A stretch of 25,147 nucleotides of DNA from a virus. The stretch spans positions 1 through 25,147 of the IMG/VR virus record IMGVR_UViG_3300046009_009564, one strand, 5' to 3'. Made by a program: the position numbers and the translations under genes. Shown here piece by piece: positions 1 through 20,507 of this stretch. The notes below the pieces were generated by a model that saw nothing but the letters and a program-made list of their open reading frames with translations, made no database searches and was not told the DNA's origin. Each line of letters opens with the position of its first letter. Position 1 is the stretch's first letter.

Positions 1-158
1 GAGCCCTTGGTTGGGAAAAAGAAAATAATGAAATTGATTTTTCTTTAATTAAAAGATTGGTCTTTAAGTTCGGTGATACAGAACAAGAAGTAAAAGATAA
101 ATTGTATGAACGAGATATCGTTTTAGAATTTGAAAAAAAAATGATGTATGAAAACTGA
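1..158 (+). CDS. 3' end of an unidentified gene (partial)
   Basis: An open frame (codons begin at position 3) enters from the left edge and stops at TGA 156-158, giving about 51 residues with no internal stop. The visible peptide is charged, rich in Lys and Glu, and ends in FEKKMMYEN. Its last 11 bases overlap the start of the next gene (ATG at 148) in another frame, a usual compact-phage arrangement that supports both being translated. No domain is recognisable from the fragment, and the start lies outside the window. Confidence 0.6.
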   Translation, partial: ALGWEKENNEIDFSLIKRLVFKFGDTEQEVKDKLYERDIVLEFEKKMMYEN

Positions 159-1218
159 TAATATTAAAATTTTATTAGATAATGGTTTACAACTAAAAAC
201 CATTTCAAAATTAACAGAATCTCAAATAAATGTTTTAGCAAAAAAATTTAATAAAAAAAAATTAAATGAGCAATGGACTAAAACACAAAGTACTGAAGTT
301 AAATATAAAACACCTTTAACAAATGTTTCTGGTGGAAAACCAGTTGCCGTACCACCACCAACAGACCCAAATAAAAAAACAATGTTAAGTGTTGATGCTG
401 GAAATTTAGTTGTAACACAAGCTGAAGGTGAAATGAAAGAAGATCAAAACATTAATATCATACAGGATCCGGACGCAACAGCTGATGGTATGCCAACAAC
501 AGAGGGTGAAGTAAATGAAAAATTTAAATCTTCCGCACAACAGAAATTTTTCTGGGCTAGATGTAACAAATCAAAAGATAAAAGTAGTAAATGGTGTAAA
601 TGGGCAAATGAGTTTCAACAGGACACTAAAGATAAAAATTTACCAAAAAAATTACACCCAGAAAAAACAGTTAAGGTTAGAAAAGAAAGTTATGACCAAT
701 TTTTAGAAGATAGTATTGTTGAGATGGTTGAAAGATACATCAACCCTAGTATGACAAAATCACAACTAGTAAAATCAATAAATGAAAAAGTTAATAAATC
801 AGAATCATTTATGTTGAAAAAACCAAAAAGAAATTCTATCTTTTCAAAAGACGAAGGAAAAGAAATGAAAACAATGAAAAGACCTATTGGTAAGCTATCA
901 TCAATTGGTGAAGGTACTAAAACAGCACCATCAAGACCAGATACAGATACAGATAAAAAAGAAAAAGGTAAAGATAGGGATAAAAAAACACCTTACGGAC
1001 CAAAACACAATCCTAAACCAAAAGCTTTTAAAGGTGAGTATAAAGAGAACGAAATTGCACCATCAAGACCAGATACAGATACAGATAAAAAAGAAAAAGG
1101 TAAAGATAGGGATAAAAAAACACCTTACGGACCAAAATACAATCCTAAACCAAAAGCTTTTAAAGAAAAATTACCTAGTTTTTTAACTTGGAATAAACTT
1201 GGTGTTAATTTAAAATAA
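148..1218 (+). CDS. Putative phage structural/packaged protein with duplicated C-terminal repeat
   Basis: A 356-residue, Lys-rich, low-complexity protein of unknown function. The middle (about residues 125-155) has an SSAQQKFFWARC...KWCKWANEF segment, a Cys/Trp motif I associate with small conserved phage proteins. It is followed by a helical stretch (about 185-215, LEDSIVEMVERYI) and then two near-identical 44-residue units rich in Lys, Asp and Pro (about 260-340). The start ATG overlaps the upstream stop by 11 bases and the next gene begins 6 bases after the stop, so it sits in an operon leading to the head genes. No Shine-Dalgarno is seen. The position just before the terminase and the lack of enzyme motifs favour a virion or prohead component. 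No function is assigned. Confidence 0.8.
   Translation: MKTDNIKILLDNGLQLKTISKLTESQINVLAKKFNKKKLNEQWTKTQSTEVKYKTPLTNVSGGKPVAVPPPTDPNKKTMLSVDAGNLVVTQAEGEMKEDQNINIIQDPDATADGMPTTEGEVNEKFKSSAQQKFFWARCNKSKDKSSKWCKWANEFQQDTKDKNLPKKLHPEKTVKVRKESYDQFLEDSIVEMVERYINPSMTKSQLVKSINEKVNKSESFMLKKPKRNSIFSKDEGKEMKTMKRPIGKLSSIGEGTKTAPSRPDTDTDKKEKGKDRDKKTPYGPKHNPKPKAFKGEYKENEIAPSRPDTDTDKKEKGKDRDKKTPYGPKYNPKPKAFKEKLPSFLTWNKLGVNLK
925..1165 (+). repeat. Two 109-bp direct repeats inside a coding region
   Basis: Copies at 925-1033 and 1057-1165 (132-base period, 44 codons) differ at one base by my reading: C at 1006 versus T at 1138, changing His to Tyr. The unit encodes a Lys/Asp/Pro-rich segment with a DTDTDKKEKGKDRDKK core. 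The near-perfect DNA identity points to a recent in-frame tandem duplication. Confidence 0.9.
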
Positions 1219-10753: not shown

Positions 10754-12604
10754 ATGGGAGCATTATTAGAATCAGGTCTTGTTGGTAACATCGGTCTTAA
10801 GCACCTTAAAGTTATCAAAGAAGATACAATTAACAAATGGGACAGATTAGGGTTCCTAGAAGGTCTTAGAGGCCACCTAAAAGAAAATGTTGCGCAATTA
10901 TATGAAAACCAAGCGTCTCACTTGATTAACGAAGCAACTTCAGAAGGTTCTAACGGAGCTTTTGAAACAGTTGTTTTCCCAATCGTAAGAAGAGTTTTCT
11001 CTAAATTGTTAGCTAACGATATCGTATCAGTACAAGCTATGAACTTACCAATCGGTAAATTGTTCTACTTTGTACCTAGAATCCAAGGATATATTGATTC
11101 AGGTGCATATCAATTACCTGATGGTGCTGCACACTATAAACCAGTTGGTGCTCCAGGTGGACCTACAGCTTCTGATTTAAATGATATCGGATATCCACCA
11201 GCAGCAAACGCTTTCCAAAAAAATCTTTATGATTTATTTTATGAAGGTGCTGAAGCAGGTTTAGATCCAGCAGGATTGTTTGACTATTCAAAAGGAAAAT
11301 GGTCTGCAGTAACAGCTGATACTACAGTTGTTAAATGGTCTGGTAGCGATTTAGTTGAAATTTCAAACGACGATCCTGTATATGTTAAAAATACAAGAAA
11401 AGTTTTAATTAAACTTTGTGGATGGAATGCACTTCCTGGTGCTGGTAAACTTATAGGACCTGATGGTAATGAAATGGATACTGAAACTTTCCTTTCTGAC
11501 CTTAAAATTTTACCTAACTTTACTAATTTAGGAATTGATGCAGATAATGTTTGTGAAATCCCAACAGCAACTACACCATTATTATTTAGAGTTGTTACTC
11601 AAAAATATGGTAGAGGTATTGTTGATTATGGTAAACAAACAAAAACAACTTTCCCAACTGATGGAAATGGTGGTTCTTTCTACGATATTTGTAGTCCTGA
11701 TGGGTGTATCGTTCTTGAAGTTGACCTTTCTTGTCCAGCATGTGCTAACTGTGGTAGCGATTCATTAGACGGTTATACTGGAACAACACTTTCTGCTATT
11801 ACTTCTGGAGAATCTTTTACCGCTGTATGGAGAAGATATGAAAACTTAGAATTCCAAGACGAAATTGGTGAAGTATCTTTTGATCTTGAGTCTGTAACTG
11901 TATCTGTTACTGAAAGAAAATTAAGAGCTCAATGGTCACCAGAACTTGCACAAGACGTTGCGGCATTCCATAATATCGACGCTGAAGCTGAATTGACAGC
12001 ATTACTTTCTGAACAAGTTGCTGCTGAAATCGATAGAGAAATCTTGAGAGATTTGAGAAAAGGTGCTGCTTGGAATTTAAGATGGGATTACAACGGATGG
12101 AGAAGATTAAACTTAACAACTTCTTACACTCAAAAAGATTGGAACCAGACTTTAATTACAGCAATCAACCAATTGTCTGCACAAATTCACAAATCAACTT
12201 TGAGAGGTGGTGCAAACTGGATTGTTGTTTCTTCTGAGGTTTCTGCAATCTTTGACGACCTTGAGTACTTCCACGTATCAAATGCGTCTCCTGAGCAAGA
12301 TCAATACAATATGGGTATTGAAAGAGTTGGAACATTATCTGGTAGATACCAAGTTTATAGAGATCCATACTTCCCGCCAAATCAAATCTTGATTGGTCAC
12401 AAAGGTACATCTCTATTGGATACTGGTTACATCTACGCTCCGTACGTACCACTTCAATTAACACCTACAATGTATAACCCATTCAACTTTACACCTATCA
12501 AAGGTATAATGACGAGATACGCGAAAAAAATGGTGAACAACCGTTTCTATGCGAGAATTACTGTTGATGGTGTTCGTACATTTGATTTAAGAGAATTAAG
12601 ATAA
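10754..12604 (+). CDS. 23: Major capsid protein (T4 gp23-like)
   Basis: Main hexamer subunit of the head, 616 residues (T4 gp23 is 521). The N-terminal 60 residues are a helical propeptide ending SHLINE-A, a perfect (L/I)-x-E site for the gp21-type protease at nearly the T4 position (residue 65). FETVVFPIVRRVFSKLLAND (70-89) matches the start of the mature T4 protein. The conserved block SVTVSVTERKLRAQWSPELA, DVAAFHNIDAEAELT and EIDREILRDL lies at about 380-435. An enlarged middle section contains a Cys cluster, C313, C318, C327, C330 and C333 (DICSPDGC, SCPACANCG). Codons end in C more often than in neighbouring genes, as expected for very high expression. A strong terminator follows. Confidence 0.96.
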   Translation: MGALLESGLVGNIGLKHLKVIKEDTINKWDRLGFLEGLRGHLKENVAQLYENQASHLINEATSEGSNGAFETVVFPIVRRVFSKLLANDIVSVQAMNLPIGKLFYFVPRIQGYIDSGAYQLPDGAAHYKPVGAPGGPTASDLNDIGYPPAANAFQKNLYDLFYEGAEAGLDPAGLFDYSKGKWSAVTADTTVVKWSGSDLVEISNDDPVYVKNTRKVLIKLCGWNALPGAGKLIGPDGNEMDTETFLSDLKILPNFTNLGIDADNVCEIPTATTPLLFRVVTQKYGRGIVDYGKQTKTTFPTDGNGGSFYDICSPDGCIVLEVDLSCPACANCGSDSLDGYTGTTLSAITSGESFTAVWRRYENLEFQDEIGEVSFDLESVTVSVTERKLRAQWSPELAQDVAAFHNIDAEAELTALLSEQVAAEIDREILRDLRKGAAWNLRWDYNGWRRLNLTTSYTQKDWNQTLITAINQLSAQIHKSTLRGGANWIVVSSEVSAIFDDLEYFHVSNASPEQDQYNMGIERVGTLSGRYQVYRDPYFPPNQILIGHKGTSLLDTGYIYAPYVPLQLTPTMYNPFNFTPIKGIMTRYAKKMVNNRFYARITVDGVRTFDLRELR

Positions 12605-12625: not shown

Positions 12626-12655
12626 AAAGGAGACAAGTAATTGTCTCCTTTTTTT
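12626..12655 (+). terminator. Strong intrinsic terminator after the major capsid gene
   Basis: Perfect 11-bp stem AAAGGAGACAA (12626-12636) with TTGTCTCCTTT (12641-12651), GTAA loop, then more T. It marks the end of the head transcript and the left border of the insert carrying the secreted protein. Confidence 0.92.
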
Positions 12656-12727
12656 GTAAATAATAATTTATTACCACTAAATGTTCATTTGACACAAAAT
12701 TTACTTTATAATTAAACTTTTTCAAAG

Positions 12728-12734
12728 TATTTAT
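12728..12734 (+). promoter_or_regulatory. Candidate promoter motif TATTTAT before the secreted protein gene
   Basis: AAGTATTTATTAAG lies 26 bases before the ATG at 12754. AAGTATTT (12726-12733) and AAATACTT further on form an inverted repeat that could fold into a hairpin or bind a regulator. Use of the same motif as the head genes suggests co-timed expression. Confidence 0.45.
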
Positions 12735-12753
12735 TAAGAAAAAATACTTAATT

Positions 12754-15330
12754 ATGAAAAGTTTTTTAATCTTACTATTTACCCTAATTTCTTTTATAGG
12801 AATTACACAAGTATCAAGTCTTTATTCATTTTCTGAGACAACCGGTACATATACGGCAATTGTTGGTGGTACTCAATTAGTAACAACAACTGGTGGTGCT
12901 ATCACTTATGATACTGATGGTAGTTATTTTACAATACCATCCGGATCACAATTTCAGTTTAACAATACAACAATTACATCTGTTAATATGACGGCAGATG
13001 GTGCTTTGTTTTTAAACCCAGGAACAACAACAACAGGAAATAGTGTAACTGGACCATTATCATCAACAGGTACTGCAGTGGGTGTTATTGCAGGTATGGG
13101 TATGGATTTAAGAAGTACGGCAATTGCGTCACAAGTATATGAAAGAAGATGGGAGGATGTAGGTACTGAAGTGGTGTTTCAATGGCAAAATGCTGCAAGA
13201 TATTTACAAAGTAGTTCAGAAAGATTTTCATTTCAAATCAGAGTAAACAAATCAAATGGTCAAATAAGTGTTGTGTATGGTAATATGACGACAATTACAA
13301 CAAGTACAACTTATCAACCAATGGTTGGTTTAAGGGGTTCCACAAATACAGACTACAATAACAGAAGATTAACAACTTCTATACCGGATGCAACACCAAA
13401 TTGGGGGGCACCAAATGGTACAACCGCCGGAACATCTAATGCTCACAACGTAAGGTTTCGTAGTGGATGTGTCCCTTCAACAGGGTTAATATTTATTTGG
13501 ACTGTGCAGTCTTGTATAGGTCCTACATTACCAACAATATCATACACTTCATCATCAACTGCAAATCTTTCTTGGACGGCACCATCACCAACACCAAGCA
13601 ATGGTTATAATTGGGAATTAAGGTCGTCAGGTGCTGGCGGTAGCGGATCTACCGGACTTGCGGCATCTGGAATAGTCGGTACAACAACCACGACCGCGAG
13701 TAGTTTAACCCAACAAACGTCCTATATTCTTTATGTACAAAGTAATTGTGGTGGAACTACAAGTTCTTGGGTTGCTTCTACCTCATCCATAAGTCCACCA
13801 ACTAATAATGATTGTTCAAATGCAACATCTGTCACAGTAAACAGTTCTTCAACTTGTACCTCAACAACTTCCGCTAGTAGTGTTGGTGCAACACAATCAT
13901 CAGCGGCATGTGCCGGTACAGGTGCTGATGATGATGTTTGGTTTTCTTTTGTTGCAACAAATACTTCACATGTTATTACTGTCACACCAGGTACTATGGC
14001 TGATGTTGTTTTTCAAGTGTATGGTGGTAATTGTGGTGGACTTTCATCACTATCTTGTATTGATGCGACGGCAGGTTCTAGTGTAGAAACCACAACAGTT
14101 AATAGTTTAAGTATTGGCGTTACTTACTACATAAGAATTCATAGTTACGCATCCACTGTTGGGTCAAGAGGTACTTTTACAGTTTGTATCACAACACCCT
14201 GTACTACACCAACAACTGCGGGTACATTATCATCAGATAAAACGACAACAGTTGTAAATGATGCTGTTACATTCTCAATTGTGGGAAATGGGGGTAGTGT
14301 AACATTATTAGAATGGTCTTTTAATAATTTTAGTACAGTTGACGGATCAATAACAAATCCTATTATGCCATACACATTACAACTAAATGTTGCACAAGCA
14401 AATATGTATTTTAGGGCAACTTCAGTAAGTGGTTCTTGTCCTGCTGGTGTCACATCACCAATTTTAGTCACATTAGAACTTGCACCACCATATACTTATG
14501 GGGTTAGTGATGGTGATTATATATCAAATGTGACATTAAGTAATATCAACAATACGTCAACAAATGATGGTGATGCTTACCAAGATTTTACTTCTCAAAT
14601 TATTGAGTTAACTAAAGGGGAACCATACCAATTAAGTGTTACCGCAACAAATACCTTTCAATCCGGACAAGGATACGCCGCTTGGATTGACTATAATGGT
14701 GACGGTATTTTTCAAACAACAGAAAATGTTTTACAAAAAGCACCAGCAAATTCAACATCAGAATTAATTACAGTACCATCAGATGCTGCAACCGGTGACT
14801 TTTTAATGAGAGTTTTATCAGCTTGGGGTTCAACGCCATCAAACGATGCTTATTATTCAACAGGGTATGGTTATGGTGAAATAGAGGAATACACTGTTAG
14901 ACTTTCAAATCCGGTGTCATTACCTGTAGAACTACTTTATTTTGAAGGTGTAAAATATCCATCATTTAATAACTTAAAATGGGCTACAGCATCAGAACAA
15001 AATTCATCTCATTTTGATATCGAAAGAAGTGAAGATGGTGAAAATTGGAGAGTTGTTGGTACTAAATTAGCGGCGGGTAATAGTCAGTCATTAATAAATT
15101 ACACCTATCTTGATTATTATAACCAAGATAATATTGTTTATTACAGACTGGTACAATATGATATTGATGGTCAACATAAAATTTACGGACCAATATCAAT
15201 AGAAGGATTTTTTTCAAGTAAAAAAATTGTAAAATATATAAATCTTACTGGTCAAGAAGTTAATGAAACATATAAAGGAGTTGTGTTTGAAGTATATGAA
15301 GACGGTACTATGAGAAAAATTATTAGATGA
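12754..15330 (+). CDS. Secreted multidomain surface protein with GEVED domain and T9SS-like C-terminus
   Basis: An 858-residue protein. Residues 1-22 are a Sec signal peptide (MKSFLILLFTLISFIGITQV). A Ser/Thr/Gly-rich beta region follows (25-250), then a fibronectin III-like domain (about 257-345, SSTANLSWTAPSPTPSNGYN), a Cys-containing PPC-like beta domain (352-480, DDDVWFSF) and a GEVED domain (about 590-716, AAWIDYNGDGIF and YGEIEEYTV). The C-terminal part is typical of Flavobacteriia secreted proteins (LPVELLYFEG, LKWATASEQN, FDIERSEDGENW, YYRLVQYDIDG). The end, KYINLTGQEVNE...GVVFEVYEDGTMRKIIR, resembles a short type A sorting signal of type IX secretion. Domain names are by recognition. 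Expected fate is export to the host cell surface; virion use is less likely given the signal peptide. The next gene overlaps by 4 bases. Confidence 0.88.
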   Translation: MKSFLILLFTLISFIGITQVSSLYSFSETTGTYTAIVGGTQLVTTTGGAITYDTDGSYFTIPSGSQFQFNNTTITSVNMTADGALFLNPGTTTTGNSVTGPLSSTGTAVGVIAGMGMDLRSTAIASQVYERRWEDVGTEVVFQWQNAARYLQSSSERFSFQIRVNKSNGQISVVYGNMTTITTSTTYQPMVGLRGSTNTDYNNRRLTTSIPDATPNWGAPNGTTAGTSNAHNVRFRSGCVPSTGLIFIWTVQSCIGPTLPTISYTSSSTANLSWTAPSPTPSNGYNWELRSSGAGGSGSTGLAASGIVGTTTTTASSLTQQTSYILYVQSNCGGTTSSWVASTSSISPPTNNDCSNATSVTVNSSSTCTSTTSASSVGATQSSAACAGTGADDDVWFSFVATNTSHVITVTPGTMADVVFQVYGGNCGGLSSLSCIDATAGSSVETTTVNSLSIGVTYYIRIHSYASTVGSRGTFTVCITTPCTTPTTAGTLSSDKTTTVVNDAVTFSIVGNGGSVTLLEWSFNNFSTVDGSITNPIMPYTLQLNVAQANMYFRATSVSGSCPAGVTSPILVTLELAPPYTYGVSDGDYISNVTLSNINNTSTNDGDAYQDFTSQIIELTKGEPYQLSVTATNTFQSGQGYAAWIDYNGDGIFQTTENVLQKAPANSTSELITVPSDAATGDFLMRVLSAWGSTPSNDAYYSTGYGYGEIEEYTVRLSNPVSLPVELLYFEGVKYPSFNNLKWATASEQNSSHFDIERSEDGENWRVVGTKLAAGNSQSLINYTYLDYYNQDNIVYYRLVQYDIDGQHKIYGPISIEGFFSSKKIVKYINLTGQEVNETYKGVVFEVYEDGTMRKIIR

Positions 15331-15797
15331 TAAGTAGATTTGAAATTATAAAAAGGTTGTTTACTTCTATTTTAGCGGTATTACAACCTTTTATAATTTA
15401 TTTTACTTGTGGTAATTTAGAGTCAATATCACAATCTTGGGAAACTCAATTACAACCCTTATTTATTTTTTCAAATGCACTTGTTAGTTATTTTTTATTT
15501 GATTTACCTAAATGGAGAATTCCTGCAGTTTTGTTACTATTGTTAACGGTATTTTCAGTACAAAATTGGTTTTTACTTCACAATGTTTTAGCTATTTTAT
15601 TTTTTATAATGTCCGGAATATCAATGTTATCAGTTAAAAAATTTAGATTTTATATTCCAATATATTTAATATCATTATTTTTTCTACTAAATGGTGGTTT
15701 TTTCTGGATGGAAACTTGGGCAATTATTTGTTTAGTTGCATATCATATACACATAATGTTTTATACATTAAGTCTTGGAAGAAATAACTCTAATTGA
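15327..15797 (+). CDS. Polytopic membrane protein paired with the secreted protein
   Basis: A 156-residue, very hydrophobic protein with about five or six predicted membrane segments (near residues 10-28, 41-58, 66-80, 82-102, 108-124 and 128-146) and short polar loops. The ATGA overlap with the upstream gene means the two are translationally coupled, so they are likely to act together or were acquired together. No family is recognised; there is no holin-like dual-start motif and it is large for a holin. It could be an inner-membrane partner, a superinfection-exclusion protein, or a passenger. Its 3' end overlaps a convergent gene by 30 bases. Confidence 0.75.
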   Translation: MISRFEIIKRLFTSILAVLQPFIIYFTCGNLESISQSWETQLQPLFIFSNALVSYFLFDLPKWRIPAVLLLLLTVFSVQNWFLLHNVLAILFFIMSGISMLSVKKFRFYIPIYLISLFFLLNGGFFWMETWAIICLVAYHIHIMFYTLSLGRNNSN

Positions 15798-18070: not shown

Positions 18071-18245
18071 TTTTAATTATTTAATCCGTTAGGTCCTCCA
18101 AGAACTATCATATTTAATTGTGTCACCGCTGTTCCATAACCATCAGTCCATACTGGATGAGGTGGTGTTACCGATATTGTAGTTGTACCACCAGATGTAC
18201 ATATTTCTTGACATAAAAATGTTTCAGTATTTGCACTTCTTGGTT
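18071..18245. repeat. Repeat copy A encoding the shared C-terminal module
   Basis: Matches 19891-20065 at an offset of 1820 bases. A 111-base core (18121-18231) is identical by eye, as is the start (18071-18087). The stretch 18088-18120 has diverged. It encodes the last ~55 residues of the 602-aa protein. Confidence 0.9.
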
Positions 18246-19881
18246 GATTTACATCTGGGTTGTTTTCAGAACATATTGAACAATTAAAATAAAAACCAAC
18301 CGGCGTAAATTCATTTGAATTTAAAGGTATTGGACATACATTTGATATTGTATAACAATTACCATTTTGGTCGCTTACGGAATAATTTTGTAATGAACCG
18401 TAGTTTAATATTTGTAAATAATTCTCAAGTGTTATTTGAACAAAACTTTCTGTGTATGGAATATCGCAAGAAAGTAATGTGATTCCTATTGCACCTTGTG
18501 AATTACAATTTTCACAAGTATCATATATTAATGTTGTTCCTAAACCATTTTTTTGTGTGTTATAATAAGTTCCATTATAATAACCACTTGTAGTACTAGT
18601 AATTTCACCACAAACCCACTCATTAGAACCCCACATTAATTTAACAATATCTCCAGTTGTGACTGTACTATCTGTCGTTACATTTACAGAATAATTTGAT
18701 GATGTACCACTAGCAGCACATATATTTACCTGCCAGTAATTTATATCGGCAGTTGCATTACAATCCGAACAATCTTCAAAAGTTTCAACACTATATATTG
18801 TTCCAGGGTAATATCCGGATGACGTTCCTGCAATTTGTGCACACACATCATTTAATGGGTCATAAAAATGAGTACCAGCACTTAAAGCTTGAAACGACCT
18901 AAGTGTATAAGAATTTTCATTACAATCTACATAACCATAAAGAACACCACTACACTCAACACAAGGGTCACATCCAGGTTGTGGTTCAAAATTAAAGAAA
19001 TTATTAATTGTAACTTCTTCTTCTGTGTACCCACTAACTTCGTAACAACCATTATCTAAAGATAGGTTTGAAACATCACCAGCACCATAAAAAGCTGAAG
19101 ACCAAACAACTTCAGTTTGCTCAGAATCAATACAATTAACAAGTTTTATTTTTTGGGCTGAAGTTGATAAACAATCAATACATTCGGCTTCACCTCCATT
19201 GTCAATAAAAAGTCCATAATCTTGAATAAAATTAAAAAATGGACCAGTACATGCTTCACTAACTGAGACGACACCACAATATTGGTCAATTCCATTTGAA
19301 TATGAAATTAAATGTCCGTCAAATGTATTATCAAGTAATAAAACACAATCAGTTTCACCATCCGTACATCTTTGTACAATATGTGGAATAGCGTTTGTTT
19401 GAAGACAAGAAGGACAATCAGTTTGTAATACTGGTGTTCCTTGTACAACACCTATTTTACAATTGAGAATCTGTTCATTTAAAACTTCTTGTGATGAATA
19501 AATACCAAAACCTACTAGAGTTGCACAAGTGGTTATTAATTCGTCACATACGGAATATGTTATATAATAAGTTTCATCAATAGTTGGTGAAAAACCAAAA
19601 CTTTCTGCTGTGACAGCAAAATTACCCCTTACACAATCTTCAAAGTTATAAACAAAAAAATTAGAAACTTGACAATCATAACAATCTGTATAACCACTAA
19701 TTAAATATCTTCCAGCAGTTGGTTCGTCAGTTAAACTTGTTATAGTAACACATTGTATTTTGTTGGGTCCGTTAGGTATATTTGATGTTAACCACGCTTG
19801 TCCTATTGATGGTATATTAAAGTTAAAATCTACTGACTCAAGATTATTTGTGGTACATTGAACCGTATTTATATTTGCCAT
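18073..19881 (-). CDS. Cys-repeat structural/tail protein with shared C-terminal module
   Basis: A 602-residue, beta-rich protein built from about seven units, each marked by a C-x2-C motif (CYDC, CPSC, CIDC, CDPCVEC, CSDC, CENC, CSIC) and strands such as GDIVKLMWGSNEWVCGEITS, TSGYYNGTYY and TSSGYYPGTIY. There is no signal peptide. The C-terminal 55 residues (from RSANTETFLCQEICTSGG to LGGPNGLNN) are nearly identical to those of the neighbouring 204-aa protein. Position in the tail operon and the repeat build suggest a fibre, tail-tip or head-decoration protein exposed on the virion, but no homologue is named. It is followed 4 bases later by the 17616 gene and preceded by an 11-base gap. Confidence 0.8.
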   Translation of the reverse strand: MANINTVQCTTNNLESVDFNFNIPSIGQAWLTSNIPNGPNKIQCVTITSLTDEPTAGRYLISGYTDCYDCQVSNFFVYNFEDCVRGNFAVTAESFGFSPTIDETYYITYSVCDELITTCATLVGFGIYSSQEVLNEQILNCKIGVVQGTPVLQTDCPSCLQTNAIPHIVQRCTDGETDCVLLLDNTFDGHLISYSNGIDQYCGVVSVSEACTGPFFNFIQDYGLFIDNGGEAECIDCLSTSAQKIKLVNCIDSEQTEVVWSSAFYGAGDVSNLSLDNGCYEVSGYTEEEVTINNFFNFEPQPGCDPCVECSGVLYGYVDCNENSYTLRSFQALSAGTHFYDPLNDVCAQIAGTSSGYYPGTIYSVETFEDCSDCNATADINYWQVNICAASGTSSNYSVNVTTDSTVTTGDIVKLMWGSNEWVCGEITSTTSGYYNGTYYNTQKNGLGTTLIYDTCENCNSQGAIGITLLSCDIPYTESFVQITLENYLQILNYGSLQNYSVSDQNGNCYTISNVCPIPLNSNEFTPVGFYFNCSICSENNPDVNQPRSANTETFLCQEICTSGGTTTISVTPPHPVWTDGYGTAVTQLNMIVLGGPNGLNN

Positions 19882-19890
19882 AATTTATTT

Positions 19891-20065
19891 TTTTAATTAT
19901 TTAATCCATTAATACCACCTAATGTAATCATGTTTAACTGTGTCACCGCTGTTCCATAACCATCAGTCCATACTGGATGAGGTGGTGTTACCGATATTGT
20001 AGTTGTACCACCAGATGTACATATTTCTTGACATAAAAATGTTTCAGTATTCGCACTTCTTGGTG
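19891..20065. repeat. Repeat copy B encoding the shared C-terminal module
   Basis: Partner of 18071-18245. The core at 19941-20051 is identical to copy A. The following base differs (C at 20052 versus T at 18232), and similarity ends where the N-terminal parts of the two proteins begin. Confidence 0.9.
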
Positions 20066-20507
20066 GTTCTTCTCCACAATCTTCACAAAGTAAAAAGGGT
20101 CCTGAAACGTATGTATAATCTGTTACACCCAATTCACTTAACCCCTCAAAAGTAGCACAAAATGGTGTTTCAGAAGCAAATTGTATTTCATAAGTAAGAC
20201 CTGTAGTGGGTGACCCAAATTCACTACAAAAATCAGTTGCGCTTATATTAATTTCATTTTCTGTACCACATTGTATAAATTTAAAATTTAAAGATTCTGT
20301 AAGACCACTTAAACACGAACAACAATCTGTATGTGGGCTAATAAAGGATATATTTAGAGTTTCAGCGTTCTCTGTTACTGCCCCAACAGTACCACAAAAT
20401 CGGGCCTCGCTAATATCAAACTCTATTGTGGCGCCCGACGTTAACGTATCTGCAGAAATAATGTATTCATTATTAGTTAAACATTCGTTTATAATATAAT
20501 TTGGCAT
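19893..20507 (-). CDS. Short Cys-repeat protein with the same C-terminal module
   Basis: A 204-residue companion of the 602-aa protein. Residues 1-149 contain about two Cys units (DCCSCL at 61-66, CEDCG at 141-145) plus Cys in strand contexts (FKFIQCGTENE, EARFCGTV, ETPFCATF). Residues 150-204 are the shared module ending LGGINGLNN. It lies directly upstream of the longer protein, in one operon. The pair looks like a duplication in which the C-terminus was conserved while the N-terminal array differs in length, as for two virion surface proteins docking to the same site. Function is not known. Confidence 0.78.
   Translation of the reverse strand: MPNYIINECLTNNEYIISADTLTSGATIEFDISEARFCGTVGAVTENAETLNISFISPHTDCCSCLSGLTESLNFKFIQCGTENEINISATDFCSEFGSPTTGLTYEIQFASETPFCATFEGLSELGVTDYTYVSGPFLLCEDCGEEPPRSANTETFLCQEICTSGGTTTISVTPPHPVWTDGYGTAVTQLNMITLGGINGLNN

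Follow-up and report, generated by a model that had tools for sequence, protein, structure and literature searches.

The window analysed here, i.e., the whole stretch of 25,147 nucleotides (IMGVR_UViG_3300046009_009564), is a viral record of 25 kb whose head module is T4-like, and Pfam identified in it a Gp23 capsid protein, a gp20-like portal, an S77 prohead protease, and a T4-type terminase. The gene of the Gp23-like major capsid protein (10754..12604, + strand; PF07068, E 7.7e-73) is followed directly on its 3' side by an ORF with an ATG start (12754-15330, + strand), which encodes an exported, cargo-like protein of 858 aa. The position between the capsid gene and other phage genes, as described in the first-pass annotation, was thus confirmed, and the capsid gene adjoins the cargo gene in related loci as well. 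By the comparison of capsid and portal, the nearest named phages were Microcystis phage Mel-JY01, Flavobacterium phage immuto, and Rhodothermus phage RM378, each with less than 60% identity. In the IMG/VR scan, the search for the gene in related phage genomes had a positive outcome, because the cargo gene was observed on 22 further viral contigs, mostly directly behind the capsid gene. In most of these contigs, the gene order was protease, scaffold, capsid, and cargo, and then a varying subset of those located downstream in the window. None of the PHROGs families matched the 858-aa protein. Downstream, a multi-pass membrane protein of 156 aa is encoded at 15327..15797 (+ strand), and the start of its gene and the stop of the cargo gene share 4 nt. 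This membrane protein was without a family match in profile searches and follows the cargo in only some relatives. It may be a functional partner of the cargo.

The N-terminal Sec signal peptide predicted earlier was confirmed at residues 1-18 (12754..12807, + strand), where MKSFLILLFTLISFIGIT is followed by Q at the mature position +1 (Q19). The family alignment shows no variation at M1, K2, and Q19. In a wider viral scan with the C-terminal alignment as the query, a strong signal peptide was present in 74 of the 76 loci with a complete 5' end. The Q-rule of Bacteroidetes signal peptides (PMC5837995) was followed by 56 of 59 distinct full-length proteins according to the script and by two more according to inspection by eye, and the remaining one has a truncated start call. 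Judged from the sequence, Sec export of the 858-aa protein is near-certain. The mature protein, encoded throughout on the + strand, starts with an exchangeable N-terminal module (about residues 19-250, 12808..13503), which is one of eight unrelated fronts. It continues with a fibronectin type III-like domain (258-338, 13525..13767; PF00041, 20.0 bits, under the cut-off of 25), a galactose-binding-like GBD_T9SS_assoc domain (350-475, 13801..14178; PF23759, 32.0 bits, cut-off 27), and a GEVED domain (641-715, 14674..14898; PF20009, 53.4 bits, cut-off 24.4). Of the domains proposed at first sight, GEVED was therefore retained above the cut-off, the part called PPC-like was recognized as GBD_T9SS_assoc, also above the cut-off, and the fibronectin-like domain stayed below it. 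The C-terminal region includes a pre-CTD domain starting with LPVEL (721-816, 14914..15201), which has an FN3-like fold in the AlphaFold2 model, and a sorting-type tail of 42 aa (817-858, 15202..15327), supported by the alignment and by the C-terminal position of its homologues in Sec-exported cellular proteins. The AlphaFold2 model of the pre-CTD and tail (pLDDT 84) showed an FN3-like sandwich and then three short strands. The top Foldseek matches of this model were largely FN3/Ig-like folds, and no CTD structure was among the matches listed, so the comparison was uninformative for the tail. The full-length model was poor (pLDDT 49) and unusable.

The C-terminus of the protein is GQEVNETYKGVVFEVYEDGTMRKIIR, exactly the ending that the first-pass annotation had pointed out and interpreted as a type A sorting signal of the type IX secretion system (T9SS). 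The type A models PF18962 and TIGR04183 gave no match to the tail at E<=10 in the 11 family members tested, so the label of type A is unearned. No type A sorting domain was found in three long phage records either. The window protein was also without a match to the type B models PF13585 and TIGR04131, and the tail matched no CTD model of Pfam or NCBIfam, with the type C (ChiA-like) model not scored by name. The profile-profile comparison of the tail with canonical CTDs was weak (Prob 39%). In Flavobacteriales genomes, the tail profile matched Sec-exported proteins at their very C-terminal ends. Within one Flavobacteriales family, the tail was present in 63 of 100 genomes, compared with 4 of 297 genomes sampled phylum-wide, and at least 24 matches were found in a single host-type genome. 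The family in question also includes the genome of Fluviicola sp. SJ411 and probably corresponds to the Crocinitomicaceae (the Fluviicola family) of NCBI. The host of the phage is likely a Crocinitomicaceae-like bacterium; the capsid gene was not found among 240 genomes of this Crocinitomicaceae-like family, which is uninformative by itself. SprA was identified in 14 of the 15 genomes checked, including all 11 of the 11 tail-bearing genomes, and the tail-rich genomes also contain many canonical CTDs. In a sample of proteins obtained by HMM search, whose loci were fetched by the tail and are hence biased to tail-bearing ones, the same pre-CTD was followed by this tail in 18 cellular proteins (and in one classed as "other") and by a canonical CTD in four (and in one classed as "other"). 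This shows that the tail and the canonical CTD take an equivalent position after the pre-CTD.

Conservation in the tail is highest at the invariant G of NLxGQ, at a G preceding the penultimate strand, and at the K of the last strand (92%), and these residues appear to resemble motifs B, D, and E of the type A CTD. The last 22 residues of a type A CTD, containing motifs D and E, were enough for the secretion of GFP, and the lysine of motif E matters (PMC10202324, PMC11285876). Like the type A CTD (PF18962/TIGR04183), the tail is C-terminal, follows the LPVEL pre-CTD, and has a conserved G and a C-terminal K. On the other hand, it has 42 aa compared with about 75, it is without the N-terminal PNP half, and it is not matched by the profiles. 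With its CTD position, and as an element common to Sec-exported proteins of T9SS-positive genomes, the tail is T9SS-associated in the broad sense. We regard it as a putative shorter, lineage-restricted variant outside the type A models. The earlier view of the protein as a T9SS cargo can thus be kept as far as export, cargo-like character, Bacteroidota descent, and a sorting-type C-terminus are concerned, and its type A membership has to be dropped.

By comparing the 59 distinct full-length viral proteins, eight groups were obtained from the first 150 mature residues and one group from the last 140. The eight front modules are mutually unrelated, and the tail family is single. One locus (L015) combines the window-type signal peptide with a front of the type found in L012. 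The capsid genes of the window and of L003, L008, and L009 differ with dS 0.66-0.81, compared with a dS of about 0.07 for cargo residues 21-350 of the same loci, and the C-terminal part of the L003 cargo differs from that of the window with dS 0.8-1.0. Because the dS of the cargo front is far below that of both the capsid gene and the C-terminal part, the front was transferred between phages recently, without either of its flanks. The dN/dS ratio of the front was about 0.04-0.08 (about 0.08 against L007), which indicates strong purifying selection acting on the protein. Genes resembling homing endonucleases, recognized by weak Pfam matches, were located between the capsid and cargo genes (L010:5213-5911, L014:5237-5911, L018:3578-5290, and L020:2833-4539), and they may promote the exchange of fronts. 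The combination of variable fronts and unchanging sorting ends suggests that an arms race takes place at the cell surface.

Other exported proteins were encoded by related phages. The L005 and L010 records contain a signal-peptide protein of 188-189 aa whose type B sorting domain scored above the curated cut-offs, and the presence of type B cargo in these two related phages represents independent evidence for T9SS use by the phage group. The type B cargo is the third of three small signal-peptide proteins encoded in a run (L203:9113-10861, also L224), and the first gene of this run in the L005 record is preceded by a late-type motif. Two of the three proteins end in PI(T/N/Q)HN. Furthermore, three relatives have, between their capsid and cargo genes, the gene of an S8 subtilase with a signal peptide (L012:3540-4967, L007:4336-5787, and L017:3195-4622; PF00082, E to 1.9e-31), which carries its own C-terminal KxIYK(N/G) tail. 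The subtilase is known from 27 viral loci and is 50-55% identical to cellular enzymes from the same host family.

About 18 nt on the 5' side of the cargo ATG, there is a late-promoter-like motif, TATTTATTA (12728..12736, + strand). The core TATTTAT was observed at most 60 nt upstream of 9 of the 22 window genes, compared with 1.6 expected, and the genes preceded by it include those for TerL, protease, scaffold, capsid, and cargo. In two long relatives, it was counted 34 times (3.3 expected) and 24 times (2.5 expected), where the counts are based on mechanical ORF lists and AT-rich gaps also increased the antisense control (20 and 12). It is nearly missing from long runs of other genes in these two relatives. 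The motif also precedes structural genes in immuto and Mel-JY01, and TATTTATWA may be considered a candidate promoter for the late genes of this T4-like branch. Read as its reverse complement, TATTTATWA has the letters of the T4 late box. The terminator noted on the left side of the cargo gene was recovered in part. On the 3' side of the capsid gene, the inverted repeat GGAGACAA-GTAA-TTGTCTCC with a T run (12629..12656, + strand) is kept in most aligned loci, but the terminator scan scored its stem-loop on the minus strand only. A sigma-70-like match at 12689 was rejected as a promoter because its score was weak, near the chance expectation, and it was not conserved in all loci. The idea of a moron-like unit with its own promoter was not upheld, since the upstream motif is common to structural genes and a gene fills the slot throughout the phage group.

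We hypothesize that the 858-aa protein is a polymorphic surface or secreted protein, which is supplied by a T4-like lytic phage late in infection and routed through the T9SS. This reading is reasonably probable, and its support at the level of sequence consists of the phage location, the signal peptide, the homology of the tail to secreted proteins of the host, the exchange of modules, and the common upstream motif. The cargo gene would be expressed late in infection, at the same time as the structural genes. The product would then be exported by Sec, and signal peptidase I would expose Q19. The short C-terminal tail would serve as the T9SS sorting signal, taking the beta-rich front to the surface or to the medium, and passage through the T9SS is likely. 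The carbohydrate-binding-like front would act at the surface or in the medium, and the phage group would keep the signal peptide and the tail and recombine the fronts. The outcome may be a lytic conversion of the host surface, in which receptors are shielded or altered and the loss of competing phages or of the phage's own progeny on infected cells and debris is spared. Receptor shielding as the specific benefit is a rather doubtful choice. Aggregation, which the first-pass annotation named next to receptor blocking, may be an effect of the protein as well. As a point against the hypothesis, late expression is less useful for early superinfection exclusion. The T5 protein Llp is a small lipoprotein that acts in lytic conversion, in which the surface of the host is changed by a lytic phage to protect its progeny or exclude competitors. 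The likeness to Llp lies in the proposed working principle. It is also conceivable, with chances slightly short of even, that the tail represents a distinct, unmodelled T9SS signal class of Crocinitomicaceae and forms one half of a late-expressed modular phage display with interchangeable passengers. These passengers would include the protease encoded by a separate gene, would be spread by recombination, and would change the surface of dying cells. Taken together, the locus suggests that lytic viruses may redecorate the host surface or release proteins from it.

If export stopped at Sec, the protein would be held in the periplasm or envelope and freed at lysis, and the tail would be a folding or stability element. 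Such a fate would agree with a tail that is without a T9SS model match and has a weak profile similarity to canonical CTDs. However, the tail is strictly C-terminal and replaces the canonical CTD after the same cellular pre-CTD, its matches number at least 24 in one host-type genome, and sister phages encode type B T9SS cargo, so that Sec-only export seems unlikely. The protein could also be a component of the virion, such as a head decoration or a fibre, whose beta-sandwich domains bind host glycans or particles. The adjoining capsid gene and the upstream motif common to virion genes are in line with this role, the slot after the capsid gene of immuto contains a repeat protein without a signal peptide, and T4 Hoc is an Ig-like decoration of the capsid. 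On the other hand, Q-rule signal peptides are nearly universal in the family and would remove the protein from the cytoplasm, where heads are assembled, and some relatives have a signal-peptide protease in the same slot. A virion role is hence quite improbable.

A moron of a temperate phage, giving lysogenic conversion as the first-pass annotation proposed, would account for the cellular-looking domains, the terminator in front, and the weak sigma-70-like match. It is hard to reconcile with the T4-like head module, with the structural-gene motif upstream, and with the identical position across the phage group. Moreover, PF00589 detected no integrase in eight records from the phage group, which may be fragments, while the controls were positive in 14 of 14 cases. 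Lysogenic conversion was therefore abandoned as an explanation and is very improbable. The last alternative is an assembly chimera with host DNA, to which the several contigs of the group that terminate inside the cargo gene could point. The contig mis-join was refuted by independent full-length contigs with diverged alleles, which span the capsid, cargo, and downstream phage genes, and a second contig of 92 kb overlaps the window at 100%. The probability of a chimera is practically negligible.

Phage-encoded T9SS cargo as such is already known from Cryophage, whose proteins with T9SS sorting domains are highly variable between phage variants and were proposed to hijack host secretion for superinfection exclusion or competition (Bellas et al., 2020, PMC7468147). 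The family described here is similar to it in that a Bacteroidetes phage encodes T9SS cargo that varies among phage variants. However, Cryophage has a circular genome of 76 kb and three enzyme-like or PA14 cargos with type A domains (PMC7468147), whereas the window family belongs to a T4-like group, occupies the slot after the capsid gene, and has a tail that the type A models do not match, eight fronts combined with constant ends, and the upstream motif of structural genes. Proteins of P. gingivalis phages likewise have Bacteroidota-type signal peptides following the Q-rule and were proposed to modify the host envelope, but no T9SS tail was described for them and the phages are different (PMC10367356). 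The BACON/T9SS proteins of crAss-like phages also represent T9SS sorting domains in Bacteroidetes phages, with other domains and in another phage group (PMC6949934). No description of the present protein family was found by targeted literature searches. The traits that seem to be new are the position of the slot after the capsid gene in a T4-like group, a tail that existing models miss, the exchange of modules, and regulation together with the structural genes. If the hypothesis is true, lytic phages would use the T9SS of the host late in infection and place proteins that are chosen by the phage and traded among phages on or outside the cell, which would be a concrete example of lytic conversion among the abundant Bacteroidota of aquatic habitats. 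The short tail may then define a minimal T9SS signal and may serve as a host-lineage marker for uncultured phages. Moreover, "host-like" secreted genes on viral contigs would not need to mean contamination or lysogenic cargo.

Several minor observations were made in the window and in other phages. Two neighbouring proteins on the minus strand (18073-19881 and 19893-20507) have an identical C-terminus of 55 aa (RSANTETFLCQEICTSGG...NGLNN) and are possibly tail-fibre paralogues or carriers of an exchangeable tip. The first gene of the window (148-1218) contains a near-identical internal repeat (APSRPDTDTDKKEKGKDRDKKTPYGPK). Mel-JY01 (PP395634.1) carries a Microcystis label, yet its capsid and portal group with those of Bacteroidota phages, and the host label merits a check. 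Finally, homologues of the LPVEL-type pre-CTD were observed in uncultured phages of 460-640 kb, namely, in LR745206.1 (42673-43020) and in three other records of huge phages.
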